Source: Sorangium aterium
GTDB taxonomy: Bacteria > Myxococcota_A > Polyangia > Polyangiales > Polyangiaceae
Length of the DNA: 64,000 bases
Assembly: GCF_028368935.1 (NCBI RefSeq)
Contig: NZ_JAQNDK010000005.1
Location: 868,001 to 932,000, forward strand
Reading direction: 5' to 3'
Shown here one piece after another: positions 32,272 to 47,770 of this stretch (position 1 is the first letter of the stretch; each line of letters opens with the position of its first letter). Below the pieces are notes generated by a model. It was not told the DNA's origin, did no database searches, and worked only from the letters and a program-made list of their open reading frames with translations. Position numbers and translations under genes: made by a program.

Positions 32272-32820
32272 CTAACTGAGCTTCTTCAGCTTCCGCTGCA
32301 GCGTCCGCCGATCGATCCCCAGCAGCTTCGCCGCGGTGGCCACCACGCCGCCCGACTCCCTCAGCGCGGCGCGGATCGCCTCGCGCTCGAGATCGTCGAG
32401 CTTCAGGCTCCCCGGCGGCGGCGTCGGCGCCGCCGAGGGCGGGGGGCGCTGGCGGTCCCGGAGGTTCGCGGCCTCGCGCAGCAGCTTGTCCGCGTCGACG
32501 GGCTTGCTGAGCAGCGTGTCGGCGCCCTCGCGCATCGCCGCCACCGCGAGCGGGATGTCCCCGAACCCGGTCAGCATCACGATCGCCGCGTCGGGCTGCA
32601 GCTTGCGGTACTGGGCGAGCGCGCTGAGCCCGTCGCCGCGCGGCATGCGGTAGTCGATGACCACGAGGTCCACCGGCTCGTACTCGAGCGCCACGAGCCC
32701 CTCGTCGATCGTCGCCGCGGTCCTCGCCACGACCCCGCGGCGGCGCAGCGCGCCCTGCAGGGTGGTGCGGAACGCGTCGTCGTCGTCCACGAGGAGCGCC
32801 GTCTCGATCCGTCGCGTCAT
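32272..32820 (-). CDS. regA: RegA/PrrA/ActR-type redox response regulator
   Basis: A 182-residue response regulator: receiver domain (about 1-120) with acidic pocket DDDD at 12-15, phosphoacceptor Asp56 in VVIDYRMPRGDG, Thr in MLTGFGD and Lys in LSKPVD. A Pro-rich linker and a short Fis-type helix-turn-helix (about 138-182) follow. The recognition end IDRRTLQRKLKK closely resembles the HRRTLQRILAK helix of RegA/PrrA. Family members activate cytochrome oxidase and other redox genes. The ATG at 32820 was chosen because GAGGTGA lies just upstream, 7 bp after the kinase stop. Four candidate target sites lie upstream of actA. Confidence 0.85.
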   Translation of the reverse strand: MTRRIETALLVDDDDAFRTTLQGALRRRGVVARTAATIDEGLVALEYEPVDLVVIDYRMPRGDGLSALAQYRKLQPDAAIVMLTGFGDIPLAVAAMREGADTLLSKPVDADKLLREAANLRDRQRPPPSAAPTPPPGSLKLDDLEREAIRAALRESGGVVATAAKLLGIDRRTLQRKLKKLS

Positions 32821-32827
32821 CTTCACC

Positions 32828-34300
32828 TCAGGCGGCCCCGGAGCGCTTCAGCGCGCCGGGGAGATCCGCGTCCATGGGGTCCGTGCTCCCGTCGAGGCGG
32901 AGGCGCAAGGTCGCCTTCGCGCCGCCGGTCTCGACGCTCTCCATGCGCAGCACCGCGTTCATGCGGGAGGCCATCATCGAGCTGATGTAGAGCCCGAGCC
33001 CCATGCCCCCCTGCTCCATCTTCGTCGTCTGGAACGGCTCCCCGAGCCGCCCGGCGATGTCGGGGTTGAGCCCCGGCCCGTTGTCGGAGACCGCGATCTC
33101 GCAGACGTCGCCGCGCTCGACGACGCTCACCTCGATCCGCTGCTCGGCCGAGCCGGCCGTCGCCTCGGCGGCGTTGGCGAGCAGGTTGACGAGCACCTGG
33201 CAGAGCGCCGGCCGCAGCACGTCCGCCTGCACCGGCCGCGGCGTGTCGAACGCGAGCGCGCCGCGGTAGCCGAGCCGCGCGAGCTCGACCTTCGTCAGGT
33301 CGCGCACGAAGCGGGTGAGCTCCAGCGGCTCCAGCCGCTGATCGAGCCGGATCTGGCCGCGCATCAGCCCGATGATGTCGCTCGCGCGCCGCGCCTCGCC
33401 GGCCACGGTCTCGGCCATGCGCGCCGCGTCCTCGGAGCCCGTCTCCCGCGCCACGTCGACGAGGTCCTTGCTCGCGAGGAGGATCGTCGCGAGCGGCGTG
33501 CTGAGCTCGTGCGACATCCCGCCGACCATGCGGCCGAGCATCGCCAGCCGCTCGTTCCGCTGGCTCTGCTGCCGGAGCTCCTCGAGCCTGTGCGCGTAGA
33601 CGACGACGAAGAAGCCGAGGAACAGCGTCAGCGACGTGAGCGACACGAGGTCGCCGAGCCGCCGGATGCGCTCGCCGCCGAGCGGCGCCGCGTCGAGCGG
33701 CAGCGGCGCCGCGTACGTGAGCACGGCGATCGCGGCCAGCGTCAACAGGCCCACGAGCACGGTCGTGCGCCGCGGGCAGAGGAGGCCGGAGAGGGCGATG
33801 TGGAAGGCGAGGAAGACGGCGAACGGGTTCGCCAGCCCGCCCGAGAACCAGAGCATCCAGGCGTTCGCGAGCACGTCGCCCACGAGCTGGGCGCGCGCGT
33901 GATCCTGCGCGGGCTCGCGCCCCGAGGGCTCGCCCCCGTCCGTCCGGCGCGCGCGCTGGACCCGGAAGGTCCAGGCAATGTTGGCCGCCGCGATCGCGGC
34001 GATGCCGACGATCAACGGAGCGAGCCCGAGGTCGGGGACGAGCTTCCTGCCAGCGACCGTGGTCGCGACCATCCCCGCGATCGCCCCCCACCGCAGCTGG
34101 ATCAGCCACCTGTCGGCGGTGTCCCAGGACGGGGGCTTCGGCCCGGAGAGCAGGACCGCGAGCCGCCGGCGCGCCGCCGGGGGCGCGCTGCTCTTGGCGG
34201 GGTCGGGACCTGCGTCAAGCGACCATGGCTGGAAGGAGGATTGCATCCGCGCGCGGACAGAGGGGCTTTCCAGGGCGCGGTCGAGGTGTCCGGCGTCCAT
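32828..34300 (-). CDS. regB: RegB/PrrB-type quinone-sensing histidine kinase
   Basis: Membrane histidine kinase of about 490 residues. Polytopic N-terminus (about 60-245), including the RegB quinone-sensing heptapeptide GGLANPF at 154-160 (consensus GGxxNPF). H-box GGMSHELSTPLATI follows with phospho-His264, then N-box NLLANAAEA, SDNGPGL and GMGLGLYISSMM. The redox-active Cys of Rhodobacter RegB between membrane and H-box is absent: the linker HRLEELRQQSQRNERLA has no Cys. Regulation is thus expected through quinone state alone. The start at 34300 is favoured by GAAGG upstream; ATG 34246 is the alternative. It lies directly downstream of the caa3 genes on the same strand. Confidence 0.85.
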   Translation of the reverse strand: MDAGHLDRALESPSVRARMQSSFQPWSLDAGPDPAKSSAPPAARRRLAVLLSGPKPPSWDTADRWLIQLRWGAIAGMVATTVAGRKLVPDLGLAPLIVGIAAIAAANIAWTFRVQRARRTDGGEPSGREPAQDHARAQLVGDVLANAWMLWFSGGLANPFAVFLAFHIALSGLLCPRRTTVLVGLLTLAAIAVLTYAAPLPLDAAPLGGERIRRLGDLVSLTSLTLFLGFFVVVYAHRLEELRQQSQRNERLAMLGRMVGGMSHELSTPLATILLASKDLVDVARETGSEDAARMAETVAGEARRASDIIGLMRGQIRLDQRLEPLELTRFVRDLTKVELARLGYRGALAFDTPRPVQADVLRPALCQVLVNLLANAAEATAGSAEQRIEVSVVERGDVCEIAVSDNGPGLNPDIAGRLGEPFQTTKMEQGGMGLGLYISSMMASRMNAVLRMESVETGGAKATLRLRLDGSTDPMDADLPGALKRSGAA

Positions 34301-34393
34301 CCCGGAGCAACCTTCCGACGTTGCCTTGCATCCGCTCCCTTGTACCGCGCACGAAAGCCGCGAGCACGCGCGAGGTGCGCCCCGGCCCACATC

Positions 34394-34493: not shown

Positions 34494-34991
34494 TCACTTG
34501 GCCTCTTCGGCTCCGCCGCCGTGCGCGCCGTGCTCGGGCGGCGGCGGCGCCTTGTGCGAGCGCTTCATCCTCCAGTCGTCGGCGGCGCGCTTGCCGTCGA
34601 ACGGCGCCTTGATGTCCGCCGGCCGCTCGGCCTCGATCTGCTCGGCCCGGCCGCGGTTGGCCGTGTCGAACATCGTGAAGCCGATGAAGATCGCCAGGAA
34701 GATGAGCGACGACGCGAAGATCAGGGCGTGGAACTTATGGTCCCACTTGAGGTGCATGAAGATGAGCGCCACGACGCCCGCCTTCGTCGTCGCGATGATG
34801 ATCGCGATCGCCAGGTTGGCGGCGCCGAGGTCGACGTAGCTCGCGCCCACGGTGGCGACCGTGAGCACGAGCAGCGCGAGCCACGTGGCGATGTAGACCT
34901 TGAGCGGCAGGACGTGAGGCACGTGATCGGCGCCATGGCCATGGCCGTGCCCGTGCCCGTGCGCGCCGGCTGCTTCTGCGTGTGTCGACAT
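34494..34991 (-). CDS. ctaF: Cytochrome c oxidase subunit IV
   Basis: Small membrane subunit of the caa3 oxidase, 165 residues, prokaryotic COX4 type with three helices: VYIATWLALLVLTVATVGASY, LAIAIIIATTKAGVVALIFMHL and FHALIFASSLIFLAIFIGF. The conserved ATTKAGVVALIFMHLKWD stretch is visible. The N-terminus has an alternating Gly-His run (AHGHGHGHGHGADH) that might bind metal. The C-terminal 55 residues are polar and probably periplasmic or cytoplasmic tail. It is the last gene of the respiratory unit, 15 bp after ctaE. Confidence 0.85.
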   Translation of the reverse strand: MSTHAEAAGAHGHGHGHGHGADHVPHVLPLKVYIATWLALLVLTVATVGASYVDLGAANLAIAIIIATTKAGVVALIFMHLKWDHKFHALIFASSLIFLAIFIGFTMFDTANRGRAEQIEAERPADIKAPFDGKRAADDWRMKRSHKAPPPPEHGAHGGGAEEAK

Positions 34992-35006: not shown

Positions 35007-35693
35007 TCAGCCCACCAGGTAGAGCAGGGGGAAGAGATAGATCCAGATGAGGTCGACGAGGTGCCAGTACAGCCCCACCCCTTCGACCGGCGAGTAGTAA
35101 CGGCTCGAGAACTCACCGCGCGTGTTGCGGATGAGGATCCACGTGATGAGCCCCATCCCGATGACGACGTGCAGGCCGTGGATGCCCGTCATCATGAAGT
35201 AGATGGCGAAGAACGTCCCCCCGTGGGCCGTGGTGAAGCCCTGGGCGGTGAAGTACTTCCCGGGCAGCAGGCCGTCGTGGAACTTGTGCTGGTACTCGAA
35301 GTACTTGATCACAAGGAACATGGCCGCGCAGAGCAGGGTCACCACGAGCAGCCGGGTGGTGGTCTTCTTGTCGCTCCTCTGCGCAGAGCGGACGGCGAGC
35401 GCCATCGTGAGGCTGGAACAGATGAGCACGATCGTGTTGATGCCGCCCATCACCTTGTCGAGGTGATGGTGGGCCTCCACGAACGAGTCGAAGAACCAGG
35501 TCCGGAAGACGGCGAACGCGCAGAACAGCCCGCCGAAGAGCAGGATCTCCGTGACGAGGAAGAGCCAGATGCCCATCCTGCCGGCGTCGAACTGCGTGTC
35601 CGCAGAATCGAAATGATGGGCGACGTGGAAGTCGGGGGACAGGATCGGGCCTGCCTTGTTCGGCCGGTCGGCGGCCTCGGCGTGCGCGCTCAT
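35007..35693 (-). CDS. ctaE: Cytochrome c oxidase subunit III
   Basis: Subunit III of 228 residues, five-helix bacterial type, stabilising the oxidase core. Conserved stretches are [46 protein letters not shown] and the C-terminal [21 protein letters not shown]. The ATG at 35693 overlaps the ctaD stop (ATGA). Longer in-frame starts fall inside ctaD and were rejected. Confidence 0.93.
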
Positions 35694-37327
35694 GCGTTCT
35701 CCGTGTTGAAGTCGTATGCGCCCTTGGTGACGATCGGGGTGCGGACGAAGTTCTCGGTGATGGGCGGGGAGGCGGTGGTCCACTCGAGGCTGAGCCCGCC
35801 CCAGGGGTTCGCCGGCGCCGGCGCGCCGGAGCGCAGCGACTTGATGAAGCAGATGATCATCACGAGGAAGCCGAGGCCCAGGATCCACGAGCCCACGGTC
35901 GAGAAGGCGTGCAGCGGCTGGAACTGGTCCAGGTAGTTGTAGTAGCGGCGCGGCATCCCGCGGCTACCCATGATGAACTGCGAGAAGAACGTCACGTTGA
36001 AGCCGATGAAGACGAGCGCACAGGAGATCGTCGCGAGCCGCTCCGAGTACATCTTCCCGGTGATCTTGGGCCACCAGTGGTGGAGCCCGCCGATGTAGGC
36101 GATGACCGTGCCGCCGACCATCACGTAGTGGAAGTGCGCGACCACGAAGTACGTGTCGTGCAGGTGCAGGTCGACGCTGAGCATCCCGAGGAAGATGCCG
36201 GTGAGCCCGCCGATCGAGAAGAGGATGAGGAACGACAGCGCGTACAGCATCGGCGCGCTGTAGCTGATGGATCCGCGCCACAGCGTCGCGATCCAGTTGA
36301 AGACCTTCACGCCGCTGGGGATGGCGACGAGGAAGGTCAGGAACGAGAACATGATGGCCGCGAACTCGCTCTGGCCCGAGGTGAACATGTGGTGGCCCCA
36401 CACGAGGAAGCCGACCAGGGCGATGGCGACGCTGGAGAACGCGATCGCCTTGTACCCGAAGATCCTGCGCCGCGCGTGGACCGAGATGAGCTCGTTGATG
36501 ATGCCCATGCCCGGAAGGATCATGATGTAGACGGCCGGGTGGCTGTAGAACCAGAAGAAGTGCTGGTAGAGCACCGGGTCGCCGCCGAGCGCCGGGTCGA
36601 AGATGCCGATGTGGAACGCGCGCTCCGCGATGAGCAGGAGGAGCGTGATGCCGAGGACCGGCGTGGCGAGGATCTGGACGATGCTGGTCGCGTAGATCGC
36701 CCAGAGCATGAGCGGCATCTTGTACCAGCCCATCCCCGGCGCCCGGAGCTTGTGCATCGTGACGATGAAGTTCAGCCCCGTGAGGACGCTGGAGAAGCCC
36801 AGGATGAACACGCCGAACGTGACGCTCAGGACCGACGTCGTGGTCACCGTGCTCGAGTACGGCACGTAGAACGTCCAGCCGGTGTCGATGCCGCCCGTGA
36901 TGAGCGACGACAGCGTGAAGAGGGCGCCGATCCAGTAGAGGTACAGGCTGAGGAGGTTCAGCTTGGGGAAGGCGACGTCCTTCGCGCCGATCATGATCGG
37001 CAGGAGGAAGTTGCCGAGCGCGCCGGGGATGCTCGGGATGATGAACAGGAACGTCATCACCGCGCCGTGCAGCGTGAACATCTGGTTGTAGGTGTTCGCG
37101 CTCATGATCGTCTGCTTCGGCGTCAGGAGCTCGAGCCGGAGGATGAGCGCGAACACGCCGCCCATCGCGAACGCGATGAACGTGCTGATGAGGTACATCA
37201 GGCCGATCCGCTTGTGATCGACCGTGGTGAGCCACGACATGATCCCGCTCTGGGCCCGGATGTAGTCCGTTCCGTGGCCGCCGTCGGGTGCCGTATTGAC
37301 GTCGAGGGTTGTTACGGTCTGCGACAT
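35690..37327 (-). CDS. ctaD: caa3-type cytochrome c oxidase subunit I, A2 type
   Basis: Catalytic subunit (545 residues) carrying heme a, heme a3 and CuB; it reduces O2 and pumps protons. Ligands: heme a His87 (FTLHGAVM) and a His in the AHFHYVM pair (398/400), CuB His263 in YSHPAVY and His312-His313 in GHHMFTSG. Tyr267 of HPAVY is the cross-linked Tyr. The D-channel Glu of HPEVY is replaced by Ala265, and a Tyr-Ser pair (261-262) precedes His263. This is the signature of A2-type oxidases such as the Rhodothermus marinus caa3 enzyme. About 12 helices are expected. It lies 19 bp after ctaC. Confidence 0.95.
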
Positions 37328-37346: not shown

Positions 37347-38297
37347 TCACTTCACCGTCTTCAGATAAGCGATGAGCGCGTCCACTTCTTTGTCCTTCAG
37401 GAGCCCCTTGAACGACGGCATCACCGGCGGATAGCCGCGCACGACCTGGCCGCCGGGGTTGAACAGGCTCTCGCGGATGTAGTTCTCATCCACGACGACC
37501 TTGGCCCCGTCCGCGAGCTCCTCCTCGCGGCCGAAGACGGCCTTGAGCGACGGGCCCTGGATCCGCGTCCCGTCGAGCGAGTGGCAGGTCGCGCAGCTCC
37601 GCTTGGCGAAGAGCAGCTTGCCGAGCTCCTCGGGGGGCAGGTCGCTGTTGTTGTTGCCCTCGAGCCACTTGTCGAAGTCCGACGGCTCCAGCACCTTGAC
37701 GGTGGCCATCATGTCGGAGTGACCGGACCCGCAGTACTCGGCGCACAGGAGCACCGTCTCGCGCGCCTCGGTCGCCTCGAACCACACCGACGTGTACGAG
37801 CCCGGGACCACGTCCTGCTTCACCCGGAACTCCGGGATGAAGAAGGCGTGGAGGATGTCCTTCGAGCTCAGGATGATCCGCACCGGACGCCCCCGCGGCA
37901 CGGCGAGCTCGTTCACGGTCGTCGTCCCGTCGGGGTAGGTGAACGTCCACAGGTACATCTCGCCCGTGGCGTTGATCTCGTAGGCCTCGGCCGGCGCGAC
38001 GGAGGCGTGCACGTAGCCGCGCATGCCCACGAAGAAGAGCGAGATCACGATGGCGAGCGGGATCAGCGTCCACACGACCTCGACCGTCGTGCTGTGGTCG
38101 ATGGGGCTCGTCTTGTCGCGCTCGCTGCGCCGTTTGTACTTGATGGCGAAGAGGACCGTCGCCCCCGCCACCAGGATGAAAAAGAGGACGGAGACCCAGT
38201 AAGCCGCGGCCCACGCGGAGTCGATTCGCTCAGCGAGCGTCGAGCCCTGGCGGGGCAGCCAGAAGGAGCCGAGTTCGATCGGGTTTTTCATCACCAT
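37347..38297 (-). CDS. ctaC: caa3 oxidase subunit II with C-terminal cytochrome c domain
   Basis: A 316-residue electron-entry subunit. Two membrane helices (about 32-54 and 73-93) precede a cupredoxin domain holding the binuclear CuA site: His150, Cys185, Cys189, His193 and Met196 ([12 protein letters not shown]). A fused cytochrome c domain (about 220-316) has heme motif CATCH at 235-239 and a likely Met ligand in PVMPSF. The aromatic patch [10 protein letters not shown] for electron transfer is present. The fusion defines a caa3 oxidase, which can take electrons directly from alternative complex III. The ATG at 38297 follows GGAG. Confidence 0.94.
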
Positions 38298-38321: not shown

Positions 38322-39164
38322 CTAGGAAGCCTCGTTTACGCGCACCCTCGTGCGGGAGCGTTCAGTCCGCCAGAAGCGAATCAGCCAGAGCCCGAGGACC
38401 ACGACGGTGACCGCGCCTGACGCCATCATCAGCCGCTTCGTCGCCAGGACGTACCCTCGGGCGTTGGGATCGTAGTGAAAACAGAACAAGAGCACGCGAT
38501 CCCAGGTGCTCCCGACCTGCCCGCTGCCCGCTTCGCGCAGCGCGAGGCCGAAGTTCTTCTGTGGGAAGGAGATGCCGTAGAGCGTGCGCGACAGGCGTCC
38601 ATCCGGCGTGAAGACGAACGCGCCCGCCGCGTGCGCGTACTGCTTCGTCGTCTCGTCCCACCGGTAGTGGAAGCCCACCGCGTCGGCGAGCGCGCGCACC
38701 GACGCCTCGTCGCCGACGAGGAAGTCGAAGCCGTCGCCGGTGACCGGCCTGCCGTACGCCTCGATGTAGTTCGCCCGCTTCTTGCGCCCGGCTTCGGGCG
38801 TGTCGCGGGGATCGAAGCTCACGACGAGGGTGCGGTACTCCTTGCCCGCGCTCCAGGCGCTCTCCTTCATGGCCTGGAGCACGCCGTTCAGGACCAGCGA
38901 GCACAGCATCGGGCACTCGAAGTAACCGAGCACCAGGACGAGGGGCTTGTCCCCCGCCGCGTACCTGGCGAGCTCGACCTCCTGCCCCGACTGGTCGCGG
39001 AGCCGGAGCTTCTGCGGGAGCAGGGCTCCCGGCCGCTCGTCGATGTCGATGCCGGTGAGCTCGGTGGGGATGGTCGTGTCCGCGGCCCGCGCGCTCCGCG
39101 CCGGGGTGACCGTGGCCACCACGAGCGCGAGAACGGCGAGCAGGCCAGACAGCGGGCGGGACAT
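38322..39164 (-). CDS. SCO1/SenC/PrrC-type copper chaperone
   Basis: Membrane-tethered thioredoxin-fold protein of 280 residues that delivers copper to the CuA site of CtaC. Copper ligands are Cys84 and Cys88 (FECPMLC) and His178 (YAHAAGAFVF). A signal-type helix at the N-terminus (LSGLLAVLALVVATVTPARS) and a second helix near the C-terminus (about 245-265) place the domain in the periplasm. SenC/PrrC genes accompany regBA in Rhodobacter, so its presence here fits both oxidase assembly and redox control. The start overlaps the upstream stop (TGATG). Confidence 0.88.
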   Translation of the reverse strand: MSRPLSGLLAVLALVVATVTPARSARAADTTIPTELTGIDIDERPGALLPQKLRLRDQSGQEVELARYAAGDKPLVLVLGYFECPMLCSLVLNGVLQAMKESAWSAGKEYRTLVVSFDPRDTPEAGRKKRANYIEAYGRPVTGDGFDFLVGDEASVRALADAVGFHYRWDETTKQYAHAAGAFVFTPDGRLSRTLYGISFPQKNFGLALREAGSGQVGSTWDRVLLFCFHYDPNARGYVLATKRLMMASGAVTVVVLGLWLIRFWRTERSRTRVRVNEAS

Positions 39165-39826
39165 CACTGCTCCGGAGCGGGGGTCGCCGGGGCCGCGGGC
39201 TTGGGCGCCGCGCCTGCAGGCTGGGCGGGCTTCGCGTCCGCGGGCTTGGCGGGCTTCACGGCCTCGGCGGGCTTGGCTGACTCGGCAGGCTTCGCAGGCG
39301 TGGCCGTACCAGCAGGCTTGGCGGCGTCCGAGGGCTTCGCCGCGTCCTTGTCGCCCGGCTTCGCTGCGTCCTCGGCCTTCGACGGCTCGCCGGCGGCGGA
39401 GCCCTCGTCGGGCTTCGCTGCGCCGTCCGCGGGCTGAGCGCCGTGCGGGATCGTGTGGATCTCCACCGGGGGGGCGGCCGCGCTCCTCACGCGCCTCTCC
39501 TGGTAGTCCTTCAGGGTGAGCGCGACGGCCTGATCGACCGGGATGCGGACGACGCCCTTCTTCTCGTCGGCCCACTGGTAGCGGCTGAGCCGCTCCTGCT
39601 CCATGGCCCGCAGGCCGCGGAGCGCGCTGTTCGGCGGCTCGAGCACCTTGCTCGAGATCTCGTGCTCCATCGTCGACTTGAAGATCTCGTTGACGAAGAG
39701 CACGGTCACCACGATGGAGAACAGCGTGGCGATCACGATCACGAAGATGAGCGAGTTGTTCGGTCGATCCGCCTCGGCCTGGGCCTCGTCGTGATCGGTC
39801 GCTGTGTTGTCGGTCGCTTCGCTCAT
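39164..39826 (-). CDS. Small membrane protein with a KPA-rich tail in the ACIII-caa3 operon
   Basis: A 220-residue protein with one membrane helix (about 26-46, SLIFVIVIATLFSIVVTVLFV). A conserved-looking 70-residue segment follows (TMEHEISSKVLEPPNSALRGLRAMEQERLS..., IPVDQAVALTLKDYQ), then about 100 residues of Ala/Lys/Pro repeats (KPADAAKPAE type). I do not recognise a named family. Its position between actF and the Sco gene suggests an assembly or bridging subunit of the ACIII-caa3 supercomplex, with the flexible tail reaching across the periplasm (inference). The ATG at 39826 follows AAGGAG. Confidence 0.7.
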   Translation of the reverse strand: MSEATDNTATDHDEAQAEADRPNNSLIFVIVIATLFSIVVTVLFVNEIFKSTMEHEISSKVLEPPNSALRGLRAMEQERLSRYQWADEKKGVVRIPVDQAVALTLKDYQERRVRSAAAPPVEIHTIPHGAQPADGAAKPDEGSAAGEPSKAEDAAKPGDKDAAKPSDAAKPAGTATPAKPAESAKPAEAVKPAKPADAKPAQPAGAAPKPAAPATPAPEQ

Positions 39827-39836
39827 GGCCGGCTCC

Positions 39837-41039
39837 TTACGGGTTGTCGATCCGAGCCGCTTCGGCAAGGTGAGGGTCGTTCAGGGGATACAGCGGGCTC
39901 TTGGCCGCCTGGAGCGCGAGCATCCAGGCTCCCACGCCCAGCGGGCCGAGCAGGCCGGCGAGGTCGATCCAGCTCAGGTGCAGGTGGTGATCCACGTTCG
40001 GCATGACGAGCCAGTAGAGGTCGACATAGTGCATCACGAGGAGGAGCACCGACGCCGCGCCGAGCACGAGCGGGCTCCGCTTCGCGTGTCGCGACAGGAG
40101 GACGAGGAACGGGATGACGAAGTGCCCGAACAGCAAGGCCAGGCTCACGACGTGCCACGAGCCCTCCCAGCGGTGGCGGTAGAAGATCGTCTCCTCGGGG
40201 ATGTTCGCGTACCAGATCAGGATGAACTGCGAGAACGCGATGTAGGCCCAGAAGATCGTGAAACCGAAGAGCAGCTTGCCGATGTCGTGCTGGCGCTCGA
40301 CGTTGCTCACCTTGCGCAGGAGCCCCGCCTTGTGGAGCGCGATCGTGATCAGCGCGAGCGCCGAGAGGGAGCTCGTGGCCGAGCCGGCGAACACGTAGAC
40401 GCCGAAGATCGTCGAGTACCAGTGCGGGTCGATGCTCATCAGCCAGTCGAACGCCGCGAACGAGATGGTCAGGGCGAAGACGATGACGGCCGGGGCCGCT
40501 CCGGCGCGCATCCTCGCGGTGGGCCGGAAATCGGCGCTCTTGTCCTGCGCGCGGGAGGTCTTGATAAACCAGAGCGCGAGGCCCGCCCACGCCGCGAGGA
40601 ACACCACGGCGCGAATGTAGAAGAAGGTCGGGTTCAGGTAGGGCGCCTTCTGGTGGAGCACATGATCGTTCGCGGCGTCGGGCCCCATCCAGTGATGGTA
40701 GATGTCGTGGGCGAGCACCGCGACCGGGAGGAACAGCACGATGCAGGCGGGCAGGATGCCGCTCATCCACTCCATGTGGCGGCGCGCGGCCGCCGACCAG
40801 CGCGCGCGGGTCAGGTGCTGGATGATCACGAAGAACAGCGCGCCGAGCGCGATCGTCACGAGCCACGTGAAGCCGGTGAGGTACGAGAACGCAAAGCGCT
40901 TCGTGTCAGTCACCGCCGCCGCCGCCGAGAGCACCACGCCGACGATCGCCAGCGCCATGCTCCCCGAGACGAGCCGCTTCGCGACCGCCGGATCGAGGAC
41001 CTTCGTGTCCTCGGCCAGAGCACTTCCGTGGGACTTCAT
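39837..41039 (-). CDS. actF: Alternative complex III subunit ActF (quinol:cytochrome c oxidoreductase membrane subunit)
   Basis: Polytopic membrane protein of 400 residues with about ten helices, second quinone-region integral subunit of alternative complex III. Recognisable stretches are FAFSYLTGFTWLVTIALGALFFVIIQHLTRARW, DIYHHWMGPDAANDHVL, KAPYLNPTFFYIRAV, FAAFDWLMSIDPHWYSTIFGVYVFAGS and the C-terminal LYWLVMPN. The ATG overlaps the actE stop (ATGA). The paired ActC is the other membrane core subunit. Confidence 0.88.
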   Translation of the reverse strand: MKSHGSALAEDTKVLDPAVAKRLVSGSMALAIVGVVLSAAAAVTDTKRFAFSYLTGFTWLVTIALGALFFVIIQHLTRARWSAAARRHMEWMSGILPACIVLFLPVAVLAHDIYHHWMGPDAANDHVLHQKAPYLNPTFFYIRAVVFLAAWAGLALWFIKTSRAQDKSADFRPTARMRAGAAPAVIVFALTISFAAFDWLMSIDPHWYSTIFGVYVFAGSATSSLSALALITIALHKAGLLRKVSNVERQHDIGKLLFGFTIFWAYIAFSQFILIWYANIPEETIFYRHRWEGSWHVVSLALLFGHFVIPFLVLLSRHAKRSPLVLGAASVLLLVMHYVDLYWLVMPNVDHHLHLSWIDLAGLLGPLGVGAWMLALQAAKSPLYPLNDPHLAEAARIDNP

Positions 41040-41647
41040 GGAGTTCCGCTCTCCTTCGCGATGTTGCCCCGCTGGGCCTCGGGCACGTCGTCGATGTGCG
41101 CGTGCTGGCTGTGCTGCAGCACGCGCACCCACGTGACGATCGCCCACCGGTCCTTGACCGGGATCTGCTTCCGATAAGCCGGCATGTTGCGCACGCCGTT
41201 CGTGATGACGTTGAAGATCTCGCCGTCGGGCAGGCCGAGGGCCCGGTCCGACGCGAGGTCGATGGGGGGCGGGTATCCGCGCTTCACCACCATGCCCTGG
41301 CCGCTCCCGCTGTGGTCGTGGCACGGGGTGCAGTAGATGTGGAAGCGATCCTGGCCGCGCCGGATCACCGCCTCATCGACGGTGATGGGCGCAAGCGCCA
41401 GGAACGTCTCGCCGTCCTTCTCCTTGCCGGTGCGGAAGGCCTCGCTCTCGTCGAGCGATCCCTGGGCCACCGTGCCCTCGACGATCGGCCGCATCGCCCG
41501 CCCGTCGGGGAACAAGCGCGTGCCCTCCTCGGGCTGGAACTTGGGCTGCCAGTCCATGTCTCCGAAGACGTGGATCGGCGGATCGCTGCTCGCCTGTCCA
41601 CGGCAGCCTGCCAGGACGAGGAGGAGGGGAATGCTCCAGCGCTTCAC
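41036..41647 (-). CDS. actE: Alternative complex III subunit ActE (monoheme cytochrome c lipoprotein)
   Basis: A 203-residue periplasmic cytochrome c anchored as a lipoprotein: signal [15 protein letters not shown] with lipid Cys15. One heme c motif, CTPCH at 106-110, with a likely Met ligand in RNMPAYRKQIP. It is expected to pass electrons from the pentaheme ActA towards CtaC. The start is GTG at 41645-41647, which follows GGAGG and overlaps the actD stop (GTGA). Confidence 0.88.
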   Translation of the reverse strand: MKRWSIPLLLVLAGCRGQASSDPPIHVFGDMDWQPKFQPEEGTRLFPDGRAMRPIVEGTVAQGSLDESEAFRTGKEKDGETFLALAPITVDEAVIRRGQDRFHIYCTPCHDHSGSGQGMVVKRGYPPPIDLASDRALGLPDGEIFNVITNGVRNMPAYRKQIPVKDRWAIVTWVRVLQHSQHAHIDDVPEAQRGNIAKESGTP

Positions 41648-42411
41648 GACGAGACCTCCCGGATGCTCTGGGCGCCGAGGCGCTGGAGGAGGCTGCGCGT
41701 CTCCGTGGAATCGAACTTCGGGTCGCTCGCCTCGACGCTGATGAAGAAGGCGTCGTCGGTCGCGCGCGGGAACGAGGGGTGCGTCATGGTGGGGTGGAAC
41801 AAGGTGGGCAGGCGCCCGAGCGCGAAGAGCCCGAAGAAGCACGTGAGCGCCGCGAAGAGGACCGTGAGCTCGAAGAAGATGGGGATGAAGGCCTGGTACG
41901 AGAAAGACTGCTTGCCGCTGATGATGAGCGGATAGTCGTAGTACTGCGTGTACCAGGCGAGCGCGATGGCGCTGGCGAGCCCCGCCGTGCCGCCGCCGAG
42001 CACGAGCCACGGCAGCGGAGACGGCTTGAGCCCCATCGCCTTCTCCAGCCCGTGCACGGGGAACGGCGTGTGCGCGTCGAAGCGGCTGTACCCGGCGTCC
42101 CGGAGCGCCTCGCACGCGTGATAGATGTCCTTCGGGCTCGTGAAGTAGCCCATGATCCCGAACAGGGCAGACTCCCCGTCCGCCTCCTGCTCGGCCTTGC
42201 GCTCCAGCTTGCGCTCGATCGAGAGCGCGGCCTGACCGTGCGGCCCGCTGTCGTGGGGCTCGGAGTACTCCGCGTCGTCCTCGGGCACGTGGCCCTGCGG
42301 CTCGATGTCGGGCTGGCTGTCGCGCGCGGAGCCCTTGTGCGCTCGTGCCTCCTCGGCCGAGGCGGGCTTCCCGGAGCGCTTCTGGCGTCGGGCATCGCTG
42401 TTACGCTGCAT
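41644..42411 (-). CDS. actD: Alternative complex III subunit ActD (DUF3341 protein)
   Basis: Membrane subunit of 255 residues in the DUF3341 family. A polar N-terminal 80 residues rich in Asp/Glu/Gln precede the conserved [44 protein letters not shown] segment. Two helices follow (about 140-165 and 185-210), then a soluble C-terminus containing [18 protein letters not shown]. The 80-residue N-terminal extension is longer than usual for this family. It overlaps the 3' end of actC by 11 nt. Confidence 0.88.
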
Positions 42412-43834
42412 GATGAGCCTCGTCGTTGCTGTGCGAGCCGTGAGGATCGGCCGCCGCCGTGACCCCCTTCACCTCGCTGATCGCGACCATCGGCAGGTAG
42501 CGGACGAACAGCAGGAAGAGCGTGAAGAAGAGGCCGAACGAACCGAAGAACGTCGAGATGTCCCAGATGGTCGGGCGGAAGTAGGTCCAGCTCGAGGGGA
42601 GGAAGTCGCGGTGGAGGCTCGTCACGATGATGACGAAGCGCTCGAACCACATCCCGATGTTGACCAGGATCGAGAGGATGAACATCGCGGGGATGCTGGT
42701 GCGCACCTTCTTGAACCAGAAGAGCTGCGGGAAGATCACGTTGCAGCTCACCATGGTCCAGTAGGCCCAGGCGTACGGGCCGAGGATGCGGTTCCGGAAG
42801 GCGAACTGCTCGTAGCCGTTGCCGCTGTACCAGGCGATGAAGAGCTCCATCCCGTACGCGTAACCGACCATGGTGCCGGTCGCGACGATGACCTTGTTCA
42901 TGTTCTCGAGGTGCCGCATCGTGATGAGGCCCTCGAGGCCGAACGCCTTCCGCGCGAACACCATCAGCGTGACGACCATCGCGAACCCGCTGAAGATGGC
43001 GCCCGCGACGAAGTACGGCGGGAAGATCGTCGTGTGCCAGCCGGGGACGATCGAGACGGCGAAGTCGAACGACACGATCGTGTGCACGCTGAGCACGAGC
43101 GGCGTCGAGAGCCCGGCGAAGATCAGGTAGGCCTTCTCGTAGTGCAGCCAGTGGCGGTGCGAGCCGCGCCAGCCGAGACAGAGGATCCCGAAGACGATCT
43201 GCTTCGTCCGGGTCGTGGCCCGGTCGCGGATCGTGGCGAGATCAGGGATGAGCCCGACGAACCAGAACAGGGTCGAGACCGTCGCGTAGGTCGAGACGGC
43301 GAACACGTCCCAGAGCAGCGGGCTCTTGAAGTTCGGCCAGATGCTCATCTGGTTCGGGATCGGGAACAGCCAGTGGGCGAACCAGATCCGGCCCAGGTGG
43401 GCCACCGGGTAGATGGCGGCGCACGCGACCGCGAAGATCGTCATCGCCTCCGCGGCCCGGTTGATGCTCGTCCTCCACTTCTGGCGGAAGAGGAAGAGGA
43501 TGGCGCTGATCAGCGTGCCGGCGTGGCCGATACCGACCCAGAACACGAAGCCGGTGATGTCCCACGCCCAGTTGACCGTGGTGTTCAGCCCCCAGATACC
43601 GATACCGGTACCGACGAGGTGAGCGAGCGAGCCGGCGAGGATAAGGAGGATGCTGAGGGCAAGGCACAGCAGCACGAGCCACCCCGGGGGGCGCTTGCTG
43701 AGGATGATGCCCGAGACCTTGTCGGTGAGAGAGCGGAAGTCGTCCTTCCCCTGCACGAGGGGCGCCTCGTCCAAGAGGGCGGCGCGGTCCGAGAGCCGGG
43801 GGTGGTCGACCTGGAGGGGTGCTGTGGCGCTCAT
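42401..43834 (-). CDS. actC: Alternative complex III subunit ActC (NrfD/PsrC-type quinone-binding subunit)
   Basis: Integral membrane protein of 477 residues in the NrfD/PsrC family, about ten helices, providing the periplasmic-side quinol oxidation site of alternative complex III. Stretches visible include [84 protein letters not shown] and [25 protein letters not shown]. The N- and C-terminal polar tails lie outside the membrane core. The start overlaps the actB stop (ATGA). Confidence 0.92.
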
Positions 43835-46830
43835 GCGTCGGCGAGCTCCGGGTTCTTGTTGCGAATCTTGGCGAGGTAGGTGACCCGCGGCTTGGTGTTG
43901 ATCTCGTCCAGCAGCCTGTAACCGCGCGGGCTAGCGGACGTGGCGGCCACCTGGCTCGTGGCGTCGTCGAGGTCGCCGAAGACGATGGCCTGCGTCGGGC
44001 AAGCGCCCTGGCACGCGGTCACGATCTCGCCGTCCTTGATGTGGTCCCGACCCTCTCGCTTGGCGTCGATCTTGGCGTGGTTGATCCGCTGCACGCAGAA
44101 GGTGCACTTCTCCATGACGCCCCGCGATCGGACGGTGACGTTGGGGTTGAACTGCATCTTCCGCTCCTCCGAGTCCGGCTGGCCGTACTCGAGGAAGTTG
44201 AAGCGACGGACCTTGTAAGGGCAGTTGTTGGCGCAGTACTTCGTGCCGACGCACCGGTTGTACGCCATGTCGTTCAGCCCCTCGGGGCTGTGCGTCGTGG
44301 CGGCGACCGGGCAGACCTGCTCGCACGGCGCGTTCTCGCAGTGCTGGCAGGGGAGCGGCTGCTGGATGCTCTCCGGCTCGTTCGGGTCCGTGCCCTGGAA
44401 GTAGCGGTCGATCCGGAGCCAGTGCATCTCGCGCGTCATGCGCACGCCTTCGGCGCCGACGACCGGGATGTTGTTCTCGGCCTGGCAGGCGACGACGCAC
44501 GCGTTGCACCCGATGCAGGCGTTGAGATCGATGCTCATGCCCCACGCGTGCCCCTGCCGCCGGTTCGGCTCCTTGAACAGGCTGAGCAGCGGCGGCACGT
44601 GCACCTGCTTCTGGGCGAACTCCGTGTCCTTCTGGAACTCGTCGAGCGTCCCCTCGCGCGCGAGCGGGCGGCCCTCCATCACGAAGTGCTCCTGCGTGCG
44701 CGCCAGCGCCACCACCTCGCCGGCCTTCTCCAGCGAGAAGCCGCCGGCGAGCTCGAAGGCGTCGCTCTTCCGCAGCGGGGTCGTGTCGACGCCGACGCCA
44801 TGGCCGACCCGGAGCTGCGCGCGCCGGCCCTGGCCGATGGTGATACCCACCGAGTCGTCCGCCTGCCCCGGCGCAACGAGGACGGGGATCCGCACCGACG
44901 CGCCGCTGCCCGTCAGCGTCACGACGTCGCCGTCCTTCAGGCCGAGCCGCGCCGCCGTCGAGGGCGAGAGGTTCGCGGCGCTGCCCCAGGTGAGCTTCGT
45001 CATCGGGTGGGGCAGCTCCTGGAGCCACCCGTTGTTCGCGAACCGGCCGTCCCACGCGTGCACGTCGGGCCGGAAGGTCACCTCCAGGCCCTCGCCCGCG
45101 GCGGGCGCGAACGCGCGCAGCGCCTCGATCGCGCCCTGCGCCGCGGCGGCCACCTGCTCGTCCACGAGCTGGGTGCCCGCGACGAGGCCGTCGTGCAGCG
45201 CGCGGCGGAAGTCGTCCTCGGTGCGCTTCGCGCCCTCGGCGGTCAGCCAGGTCGCCCGCACCAGGTCGTACGCCGTCCGCGAGCCGCCGAGCAGGAGCTC
45301 GATGACCTCGGCGTCCGTCCTGCCGCCGAAGAGCGGCGCGATGAGCGGCTGCGCGACGCTGGCCGTCCCGTCCTCCGCCCGGACGTCGCTCCACGACTCC
45401 AGCGGATGGGCGCGGTTCAGGTGCCATTTGGTGCGCTCGCTCGTCTCGTCGACGTGCGTCGAGACGTGCACGCTCACGGCCACCTTGGCGAGCGCGTCGG
45501 CGAAGCGCGCGTCCGCGGGCGCGTCGAAGGCCGGGTTGCCGCCCAGGATGATCAGCGTCTCGACCTCGTTCTTCTCGATGGAGCGCGCGAGCTCGACGAG
45601 CGCCTCGGGGCCCTCGCGCGAGTCGTCGAAGGGCGCGACGAGCCGGACCGCCTTGCCCGTGTTGTCGAGGGCGAGGTTGATGAGGTGCACGAGGCCGTGG
45701 ACCTCCTTCGGCAGCGAGCGCCCGGCCACGACCGCGCCCTGGCCCCGGTTGGCGGCGAGGTCGGCGGCGATGGCGGCGACGTGCCGGGTCGCCTTGGCGT
45801 CGAGCCCCTCCGATTTGCCCTCGAGCGCCTTGAGCAGCTCCGCGTCGAGCGCGACCCCGCGCTTGCCGAGCTCGGTCGCGAGGGCGAAGGCGAAGGCGGG
45901 GATCTTGCGGCTCTGGATGCGGAGCCGGTGATCCGCGGCCGCGCCGGTGATCGTGAAGGTGCTCTCGACGGCGTAGAGGCGGTTCATCGCCTTCGGGTCC
46001 TTGTCGACCGCGCGGCCCGCCGAGAACGCGCGCGCCTGCTTGAGCGGGCTGCCGTCGGAGGCGAACAGGTCGGCGTCGAGCGCGACGATCACGCGCGCCT
46101 TCGTCAGGTCGAGCGTGGTCTCGAGCGGCTTGCCGAACGCGAGCCGCGCGCCCTCCCGCGCGGCGTCGCGCGAGAAGGGCTCGTACCGGACGACGCGCGC
46201 CTCGGGCAGCGTCTTGCGGAGATCCGCGAGGCGCGCGGCCAGCGTCGGCGACCGGTGCGCCTCGGTCAGGATCGTGAGCCCCTTGCCGCCGCGGCCGCGG
46301 AGCTTGTCGCCCTCGGTGCGGAGGAACGCCGCGGCGTCGTCCCAGGACTTCTCGTTCGCGCCCTCGCGCGGCGACTTGCTGCGATCGGGATCGTAGAGGT
46401 CGAGGACCGCGGCCTGGGTATAGAGGGTGGTGCTGCCGAGGCTCTCGGGGTGCTTCGGGTTGCCCTCGATCTTGGTGGGCCGCCCCTCGTGGCTCTCGAC
46501 GATGACGCCGAAGGCCGTGCCCATCATCGGGAGCGCCGTCGCGAAGAACAGTGGCTTGCCCGGGATGACCTCCTCCGGGGTCCGCGAGTACGGCAGGATC
46601 TGCTCGACGGGCCGGCGGCAGCCCACGAGGCCACCGAGCGCGAGCGACGCGCCCATGAGGCTCAGGAACGTGCGCCGCCCGACGCCCTCCGGCGGCTCGA
46701 ACGCGGCCGGCGGGAACTCGCGCCCGAGCGCGTCGACGAAGTCGGGCGAGCCGGAGAGCTCGTTCAAGCTGCGCCAGTAGGTCTTTCCAGAGAGGTCCTG
46801 GGCGAGGGGGAGAGGAGTTCGTTTACTCAT
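43831..46830 (-). CDS. actB: Alternative complex III subunit ActB (molybdopterin-oxidoreductase-like and Fe-S fusion)
   Basis: A 999-residue periplasmic subunit. The N-terminus has a twin-arginine motif ([11 protein letters not shown], Arg52-Arg53) and a lipobox ending at Cys71 (GGLVGC), so it is probably Tat-exported and lipid-anchored. Residues about 80-740 resemble molybdopterin oxidoreductases, although ACIII members carry no molybdenum. The C-terminal ferredoxin-like domain (about 760-970) holds the Fe-S cysteines: [11 protein letters not shown] (from 772), [26 protein letters not shown], and CTFC with CQGACP. Electrons run from quinol at ActC through these clusters to the hemes of ActA. 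It overlaps actA and actC by 4 nt on each side. Confidence 0.93.
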
Positions 46831-47522
46831 CGGTGGCACCCCGAGCAGTGAAGCGGCGCCTGCACCTGCCGCCCGGAGGAAGTGACCGCTGGCACGCGAT
46901 CGTTGTAAGGCTCGTGGCTCGCCGGGATGCCGGCGCCCGCCATGGCGGCCGTCGCGGGTGCCATATCCATCTTGGTGACGTCGGCGGGATTGCGGAGGTT
47001 GGGACCCGGATTGCGGTGGCAGTCCAGGCACCATCCCATCGAGAGCGGCTGGACCTGCCGGACCTTGTGCATCTGGTCCACGCGGCCGTGACAGCTCACG
47101 CAGCCGACCCCTGCGGCCAGGTGGGCCGAGTGGTCGAAATAGGCGTAGTCCGGCAGGTTGTGGACGCGCACCCAGGGGATGGGTTGATCCGTCGCCCAGC
47201 TCTCCTGGACCAGGAGGAGCTTTTCGCTGTCCCGCCGCACCTTGGCATGACAGTTCATGCACGTCTCGGTGGGGGGAACTGCGGCGAAGCTGGAGACCTC
47301 TACTGTGCTGTGACAGTAGCGGCAGTCGATACCGAGGTCGCCGGCGTGCAGCTTGTGGGAATAGTCAACCGGTTGATCCGGCTGATACCCAACCTCGATA
47401 TGTTTGTTGGTACCGTAGTACCAGAATCCGCCGATCACAGCGGCGCCGAGGGGCAGGACTCCGAAGAGCAGCCCCAACGGAACCACTTTGTTGGCCCATC
47501 GTGGGAACAGGAACCGCGCCAT
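46827..47522 (-). CDS. actA: Alternative complex III subunit ActA (pentaheme cytochrome c)
   Basis: A 231-residue membrane-anchored multiheme cytochrome c. One N-terminal helix (VVPLGLLFGVLPLGAAVIGGFWYY) is followed by five CxxCH motifs at residues 67-71, 88-92, 141-145, 165-169 and 226-230. This matches the pentaheme ActA of alternative complex III. It is the first gene of the operon. The ATG at 47522 gives the MARFLFPRWANK N-terminus typical of the family. A candidate promoter and four palindromes lie upstream. Confidence 0.92.
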   Translation of the reverse strand: MARFLFPRWANKVVPLGLLFGVLPLGAAVIGGFWYYGTNKHIEVGYQPDQPVDYSHKLHAGDLGIDCRYCHSTVEVSSFAAVPPTETCMNCHAKVRRDSEKLLLVQESWATDQPIPWVRVHNLPDYAYFDHSAHLAAGVGCVSCHGRVDQMHKVRQVQPLSMGWCLDCHRNPGPNLRNPADVTKMDMAPATAAMAGAGIPASHEPYNDRVPAVTSSGRQVQAPLHCSGCHR

Positions 47523-47558: not shown

Positions 47559-47587
47559 AGTTATGGCTTGCTGGCGGGGTGCGACAA
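47559..47587 (-). promoter_or_regulatory. Candidate promoter of actA
   Basis: On the minus strand TTGTCG (47582-47587) and ATAACT (47559-47564) are separated by 17 nt. Transcription would start near 47552, about 30 nt before the actA ATG. The first palindrome abuts the -35 element. No clear Shine-Dalgarno is seen in the predicted leader. Confidence 0.4.
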
Positions 47588-47588
47588 G

Positions 47589-47684
47589 ACGGCAAAGTGC
47601 CGCGTGACTGCGGCAGATTGCCGCTGTGGATAACTGAAGGTCCACGTCGCGGCAGGCCGCCGCGGGGGTGCGGCACTTTGCCGC
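47589..47684. promoter_or_regulatory. Four RegA/PrrA-like palindromes upstream of actA
   Basis: Four 15-bp dyads of the form GCGGCA-N3-TGCCGC: 47589-47603 (left half ACGGCA), 47610-47624 (perfect), 47649-47663 (right half CGCCGC) and 47670-47684 (perfect). The pairs 1-2 and 3-4 are each spaced exactly 21 bp, two helical turns. The half-sites match GCGNC...GNCGC, the dyad recalled for RegA/PrrA. Relative to the candidate start site their centres lie near -44, -65, -104 and -125, a layout suited to activation. A RegA homologue is encoded at the far end of the locus. Confidence 0.5.
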
Positions 47685-47770
47685 GGCTGCAGGCGTCCGT
47701 CCTTACGACACGGGTGCAAACTGGACGCGACACCAGCTCGAAAAATTCTCGAAACATCGACGCCGGCCGG

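Follow-up and report, generated by a model that had tools for sequence, protein, structure and literature searches.

Tandem palindromes resembling RegA sites before an alternative complex III-caa3 oxidase operon in Sorangium aterium

The window analysed here, a 64-kb stretch of the Sorangium aterium genome, carries a gene cluster for alternative complex III and a caa3-type oxidase that is preceded by four closely related palindromes and ends in a RegB/RegA-like two-component pair. This arrangement raises the question of whether the palindromes are operators of the cluster, and which protein reads them. An array of conserved sites for the operon is real, and the best candidate reader, judged from sequence, is most likely the RegA-like regulator encoded behind the cox genes.

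The gene cluster and its palindrome array

The host genome (13.47 Mb in seven contigs) is of Sorangium type, and among 80 loci from named genomes the closest relative of its ActC is that of a Sorangium MAG (94% identity). The cluster is encoded on the minus strand in the order actA-actB-actC-actD-actE-actF, a short unknown frame, SCO1, coxB, coxA, coxC, cox4, the RegB-like gene and the RegA-like gene. actA (46827-47522) encodes the multihaem cytochrome c of alternative complex III, actB (43831-46848) a subunit with molybdopterin-like and Fe-S features, and actC (42401-43834) an NrfD-type membrane subunit. These are followed by an actD-like frame (41644-42411) and by frames holding an actE-like cytochrome c (41036-42115) and an actF-like membrane subunit (39837-41324), both with true starts internal to the frame. 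The frame in the gap between actF and SCO1 (39164-39868) has a long Ala/Pro/Lys-rich tail and is without a Pfam match. The oxidase genes encode an SCO1/SenC copper chaperone (38322-39170), a CoxB that reads as carrying a C-terminal cytochrome c motif (37347-38297), oxidase subunit I (coxA, 35690-37327), oxidase subunit III, read from a frame with an internal true start (35007-35888), and oxidase subunit IV (34494-34991). Last come the RegB-like histidine kinase (32828-34390) and the RegA-like response regulator (32272-32826), a candidate binder of the palindromes.

The palindromes, or dyads, have the 15-bp form GCGGCA-N3-TGCCGC and lie 67-162 bp 5' of actA, whose ATG is at 47522. A search of the window with GCGGCANNNTGCCGC gives matches at 47589 (one mismatch), 47610 (none), 47649 (one) and 47670 (none), and no other match with up to one mismatch. 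This agrees with the initial annotation, which described two perfect and two one-mismatch palindromes at these places, and the spacing within each of the two pairs is exactly 21 bp, as it had also proposed. Numbered towards the gene on the minus strand, dyad 1 (47670-47684) is a perfect palindrome and dyad 2 (47649-47663) has one mismatch; both are found in the six genomes of the genus. Dyad 3 (47610-47624), again perfect, is the counterpart of the strong palindrome of other genera, and the promoter-proximal dyad 4 (47589-47603) reads GCGGCACTTTGCCGT.

A candidate -35 box, TTGTCG (47582-47587, minus strand), starts one base beyond dyad 4, as the initial annotation had noted. It is invariant in the six genus genomes and takes the form TTGNC in most other dyad-bearing genomes. 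The -10-like CATAAC (47560-47565, minus strand), 16 bp from the -35-like box, is invariant in the six genus genomes and G007, and a GTAAGG block upstream of the array (47701-47706, minus strand) is invariant in the six. Under the stricter rules of a generic sigma-70 scan, no promoter was called. By arithmetic from the candidate boxes, transcription of actA would start at about 47553, and the centres of dyads 4 to 1 would then lie at about -43, -64, -103 and -124. These are activator-like positions, as expected from the suggestion that the array suits activation.

The palindromes are far from a chance occurrence. Second-order Markov copies of the window hold on average 1.3 matches with up to one mismatch, and at most two per 126 bp in 40 runs. 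When up to three mismatches are allowed, the whole genome holds three pairs spaced by 21 bp, two at actA and one within a repetitive frame at C3:1207283, and the reversed pattern gives no such pair genome-wide. A fortuitous cluster in GC-rich DNA would be in keeping with single dyads being near background in the genome, and with the window being ordinary when two mismatches are tolerated (28 matches, where shuffles average 22 and 13 of 100 reach that number). Against it stand the four dyads per 96 bp and their position and, mostly, spacing, which are conserved between genera; because of this conservation the reading is already refuted, and we give it practically no weight.

Perfect single dyads are not clearly enriched: this genome has 12 where the reversed pattern has six, and the other five genus genomes have 5-11 where it has 8-20. 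A regulon of single perfect dyads was rejected because these counts are near background. Ten of the perfect sites lie away from actA, five of them within long frames accepted by a GC-by-codon-position filter and five not (L001-L004, L012). The site at C2:221748 (L004) recurs in three genomes; the DNA around it is about 90-92% conserved across 692-962 bp and reads as coding in L160. Another perfect dyad (L001:1501 and L298:1501) lies between divergent genes that read as serA-like and lipoprotein-like; it is kept in two of the six genus genomes and may mark another target or another factor.

The array behaves differently from the single sites. A composite pattern of the distal dyad and a proximal half-copy matches 23 times, in 18 of 108 family genomes, and each match stands before actA, with one for the reversed control; because this pattern was drawn from the actA sites themselves, only its absence elsewhere is independent evidence. 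A looser pattern, searched in 377 genomes of the phylum, has 15 matches in 12 genomes, 11 of them before actA. The other four, two of them inside long frames, are without act genes in the retrieved stretch and equal the reversed control (four). Since matches before actA dominate and those elsewhere are at the control level, the array marks one operon, and regulation through weaker or single sites elsewhere may occur. The initial annotation had named a common, randomly placed dyad as the outcome that would speak against its reading. That description holds for single dyads, which are near background, but not for the array, which is confined to actA.

Conservation of the array and its co-occurrence with RegA

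ActA has a match in 106 of the 108 family genomes (E 0.001, a count that includes weak multihaem matches). The six genus genomes have four sites at about -161, -141, -102 and -80, and successive sites are 20-21, 39 and 21 bp apart; the half-sites hold and the dyad centres vary, and in G103 the last of the four sites is degraded (three mismatches). TTGTCGCAC and the downstream CATAACT are invariant across all six. The other dyad-bearing genera (G006, G007, G046, G067, six g44 genomes, G105-G107 and G004) have one strong palindrome, some of them more, and in most of them a degraded copy follows 20-21 bp closer to actA and merges into a -35-like box of TTG type. The distance from palindrome to copy is about 40 bp in G107 and G379.

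Among the 80 loci from named genomes, 64 have an ActA match, and six of these 64 have a dyad with up to one mismatch within 300 bp upstream (L016, L017, L018, L027, L042 and L074); that of L042 is a one-mismatch dyad about 300 bp from the gene. RegA and RegB are both in the retrieved stretch of L017 and L018, and the L016 contig stops short of that point. The genome of L017 has a RegA at 74% identity and a one-mismatch dyad. In the ActA tree the dyad-labelled rows fall in one clade (24 rows, 23 with a dyad; support 100/97). G008, an 83% complete draft, lies inside the dyad clade, yet neither dyad nor RegA was detected in it.

This genome carries in addition a divergent ActA-like gene (C1:805583-806149, L164; 43% identity). 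No dyad with fewer than three mismatches occurs in the 1.4 kb around it, and none with fewer than two in the stretches searched for the divergent second ActA gene of this genome and five relatives.

The local RegA is present in 19 of the 108 family genomes (E 1e-40). A dyad with up to one mismatch lies before actA in all 19 of these (18 perfect), against two of 70 genomes without the regulator, namely G004 (perfect) and G012 (one mismatch). The reversed pattern never reaches one mismatch or fewer in the same stretches of either group. These counts cover the 89 of 108 genomes that yielded upstream sequence (19 are not included), with 260 bp for 30 genomes and up to about 500 bp, including some coding sequence, for the other 59; they use the best ActA match per genome, which in several genomes without RegA is the divergent type. 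In 16 of the 19 genomes RegA and actA share a contig and are 14-18 kb apart, whereas RegA is on a separate contig in G104, G106 and G107; in G107 it was not found within 28 kb downstream of actA on the actA contig. Thus the proposal that RegA-type sites stand before the ACIII-caa3 operon with a RegA in the same cluster is upheld, and the sites and the local RegA do occur together.

The association extends beyond the family. RegA (E 1e-35) is found in nine of the 377 phylum genomes, two of which belong to another family (G329 and G379). Their RegA proteins are 62% identical to the local one, with dyads at -112 (perfect) and -110 (one mismatch), respectively; RegA and actA are on different contigs in both, near contig ends. 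Because the dyad-bearing ActA rows form one clade, the co-occurrence is mostly one inheritance, and thus largely reflects one shared history.

The RegB/RegA-like pair and its relatives

The local RegA-like protein has Response_reg and HTH_8 (Fis-type) domains. Its best match is the ActR_PrrA model, at a score (106.4) that is below the NCBIfam equivalog cut-off of 250, and the kinase likewise has ActS_PrrB as its best match (166.9, below a cut-off of 350). Its helix reads GIDRRTLQRKL, without variation among the RegA proteins of 22 genomes, where the best PDB match, 3rqi, has NMHRRTLQRKL. With the HTH domain alone, a PDB search returns 3rqi, NtrC-type and Fis domains, and there is no PrrA effector entry among the 25 matches listed. 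Of the claim that a RegA with a nearly identical recognition helix is encoded downstream, the RegA-like gene at the end of the cluster thus stands, and its membership in the canonical family does not, since the protein is divergent and below the NCBIfam cut-off. Judged by these scores and motifs, the pair is RegBA-like but not canonical, and its RegA is a divergent branch.

The kinase carries an HELSTP H-box, and at the position that we take to be that of the known redox-active cysteine it has an alanine. The same column holds Ala in 19 of 19 aligned kinases and Cys in the paralog L253; Cys is also present in the corresponding stretch of the paralog L254. The GGxxNPF quinone motif of the RegB family (PMC8191878) is found in 18 of the 19 kinases adjoining RegA orthologs, as GGLANPF in the window, the exception being GGLRSPF in G006.

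The RegA orthologs of G105-G107 (L142-L144, L169, L170) were examined for a neighbouring RegB-like kinase, and none adjoins them. In these genomes it is therefore the regulator rather than the pair that accompanies the dyad, and the kinase half of the explanation developed below fails there.

Two further RegB/RegA pairs, at C5:319644 (L253) and C7:305547 (L254), are closer to the canonical family. Their regulators reach 173.7 and 171.3 bits with the ActR/PrrA/RegA model, against 106 for the local RegA, and both kinases have the quinone motif and the Cys. The C7 pair adjoins a multi-TM protein with a C-terminal CxxCH, which reads as perhaps a cytochrome-linked oxidase. A C5-type RegA (E 1e-40) is present in 58 of the 108 family genomes, by matches that reach down to about 45% identity, so that orthology is not assured.

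As for the sites, PMC5506826 quotes consensus strings for R. capsulatus RegA, R. sphaeroides PrrA and B. japonicum RegR, and the RegA and RegR strings have the same 15-base frame as the dyads. The initial annotation held that the half-sites fit the RegA/PrrA dyad. This is borne out in part: two of the four dyads match the R. capsulatus consensus fully and the others have one and two mismatches, but that consensus is so loose that it fits 144 places in the window in full. From the RegR consensus, in the better orientation, the four dyads differ by one to two mismatches, and from the PrrA consensus by one to three. Proteobacterial sites of this family are called degenerate in PMC5506826 and PMC4263372, and according to the latter, PrrA ChIP-seq gave no strong consensus.

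A candidate redox circuit

The four palindromes are probably tandem operators read by the RegA-like protein of the cluster, and we favour this explanation with fair confidence. One RegA-like dimer would bind each 15-bp dyad, with the dimers of a pair two helical turns apart. The proximal dimer, centred near -43, would adjoin a weak -35 box, and its neighbour would be centred near -64; RegA, so placed, would most likely recruit RNA polymerase. The two upstream sites would add strength in Sorangium-type genomes. The signal of the kinase is most likely the quinol/quinone pool, which alternative complex III drains, because the kinase retains the quinone motif and carries Ala where the redox Cys would be. 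We infer the binding by the local RegA, the direction of control, the promoter and the quinone signal; what the sequences show is that the sites exist and are conserved, that the array is restricted to the operon and co-occurs with RegA, and that the kinase has these motifs. It is possible, at slightly below even chances, that the loop is self-contained, with the Cys-less RegB-like and RegA-like pair controlling only its own operon through the array.

An unrelated regulator, such as an NtrC-type or other HTH protein, could read the dyads instead, and they could serve repression, since the last of them directly adjoins the -35-like box. Many dimeric factors could bind a palindrome of this kind, and there are dyads in genomes where RegA was not detected. 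In G004 (perfect dyad) the RegA matches, at best E 1.7e-18, are confined to the receiver domain. At E 1e-15 RegA has no match in the genome of L074, which has a perfect dyad at -157, or in that of L027, which has one-mismatch dyads at about -274 and -261. The L074 dyad (L074:5598) is set in an AT-rich stretch before the actA of a Myxococcota MAG. This alternative is at odds with the linkage of RegA to actA in 16 of 19 genomes, with the co-occurrence in 19 of 19, and with a site register and length that are the same as those of RegA-family sites, and we regard it as unlikely, though worth keeping in mind. Less likely again is that the array is read by the C5:319644 or the C7:305547 pair, with the local pair acting elsewhere. 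The higher ActR/PrrA/RegA scores of these distant pairs and their kinases with both quinone motif and Cys would fit such a role, but the C5 type, the only one compared, is missing from the dyad-bearing genomes G006 and G046, and among 35 examined genomes with it and without the local RegA just one has a dyad. The canonical C5 paralog thus tracks the dyad poorly.

The palindromes could also act as structure, whether as a DNA cruciform or as hairpins in an RNA leader. With z -5.5, which none of 200 shuffles equalled, the fold predicted for the 198-nt minus strand is unusually good. It pairs dyad 1 with dyad 4 and dyad 2 with dyad 3, and in this genome the pairing of dyads 1 and 4 extends to all 15 positions. 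Palindromes of the same sequence pair anyway, however: across the six genomes the 1-4 combination pairs at 13-15 of 15 positions, 2-3 at 12-13 and the others at 12-15. Most relatives have one good palindrome with a non-palindromic copy, the sites are upstream of the implied transcription start, and the array-bearing L008 has no Rfam match. RNA structure as the function was rejected on the nonspecific pairing and the missing Rfam match in L008, and a structural role of either kind is very improbable.

Among known systems, the closest are the proteobacterial RegB/RegA (PrrB/PrrA, ActS/ActR, RegS/RegR) redox two-component systems. They have, as does the Sorangium pair, a regulator with a receiver and a Fis-type HTH and a kinase with a GGxxNPF quinone motif and an H-box; the candidate site here likewise takes the form of a 15-bp imperfect inverted repeat, and the putative target genes are respiratory. 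Unlike their proteobacterial counterparts, both Sorangium proteins are under the NCBIfam equivalog cut-offs, and the kinase lacks the redox Cys. The sites differ as well, in forming tandem pairs that most genomes space by 20-21 bp. In place of global control through degenerate sites, the array stands at one operon, that of alternative complex III, and is confined to it among the 108 family genomes, in contrast to the global regulon of the proteobacterial systems. According to PMC5506826, the RegA of Acidithiobacillus ferrooxidans similarly binds 5' of respiratory-enzyme operons, mostly upstream of the -35; its targets, unlike the one here, are iron and sulfur oxidation operons, a search for sites in the target promoters failed, and its kinase has the cysteine.

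A thin literature search brought up no account of a regulator acting on an alternative complex III operon, from which absence does not follow. The main novelty is the sharp array at a single operon, compared with the degenerate sites of the proteobacterial RegA family. Because the array is sharp, conserved and in one known place, both site recognition and quinone sensing by a Cys-less kinase become directly testable. If the proposed circuit is correct, the state of the quinol pool would set the level of the enzyme that drains it.
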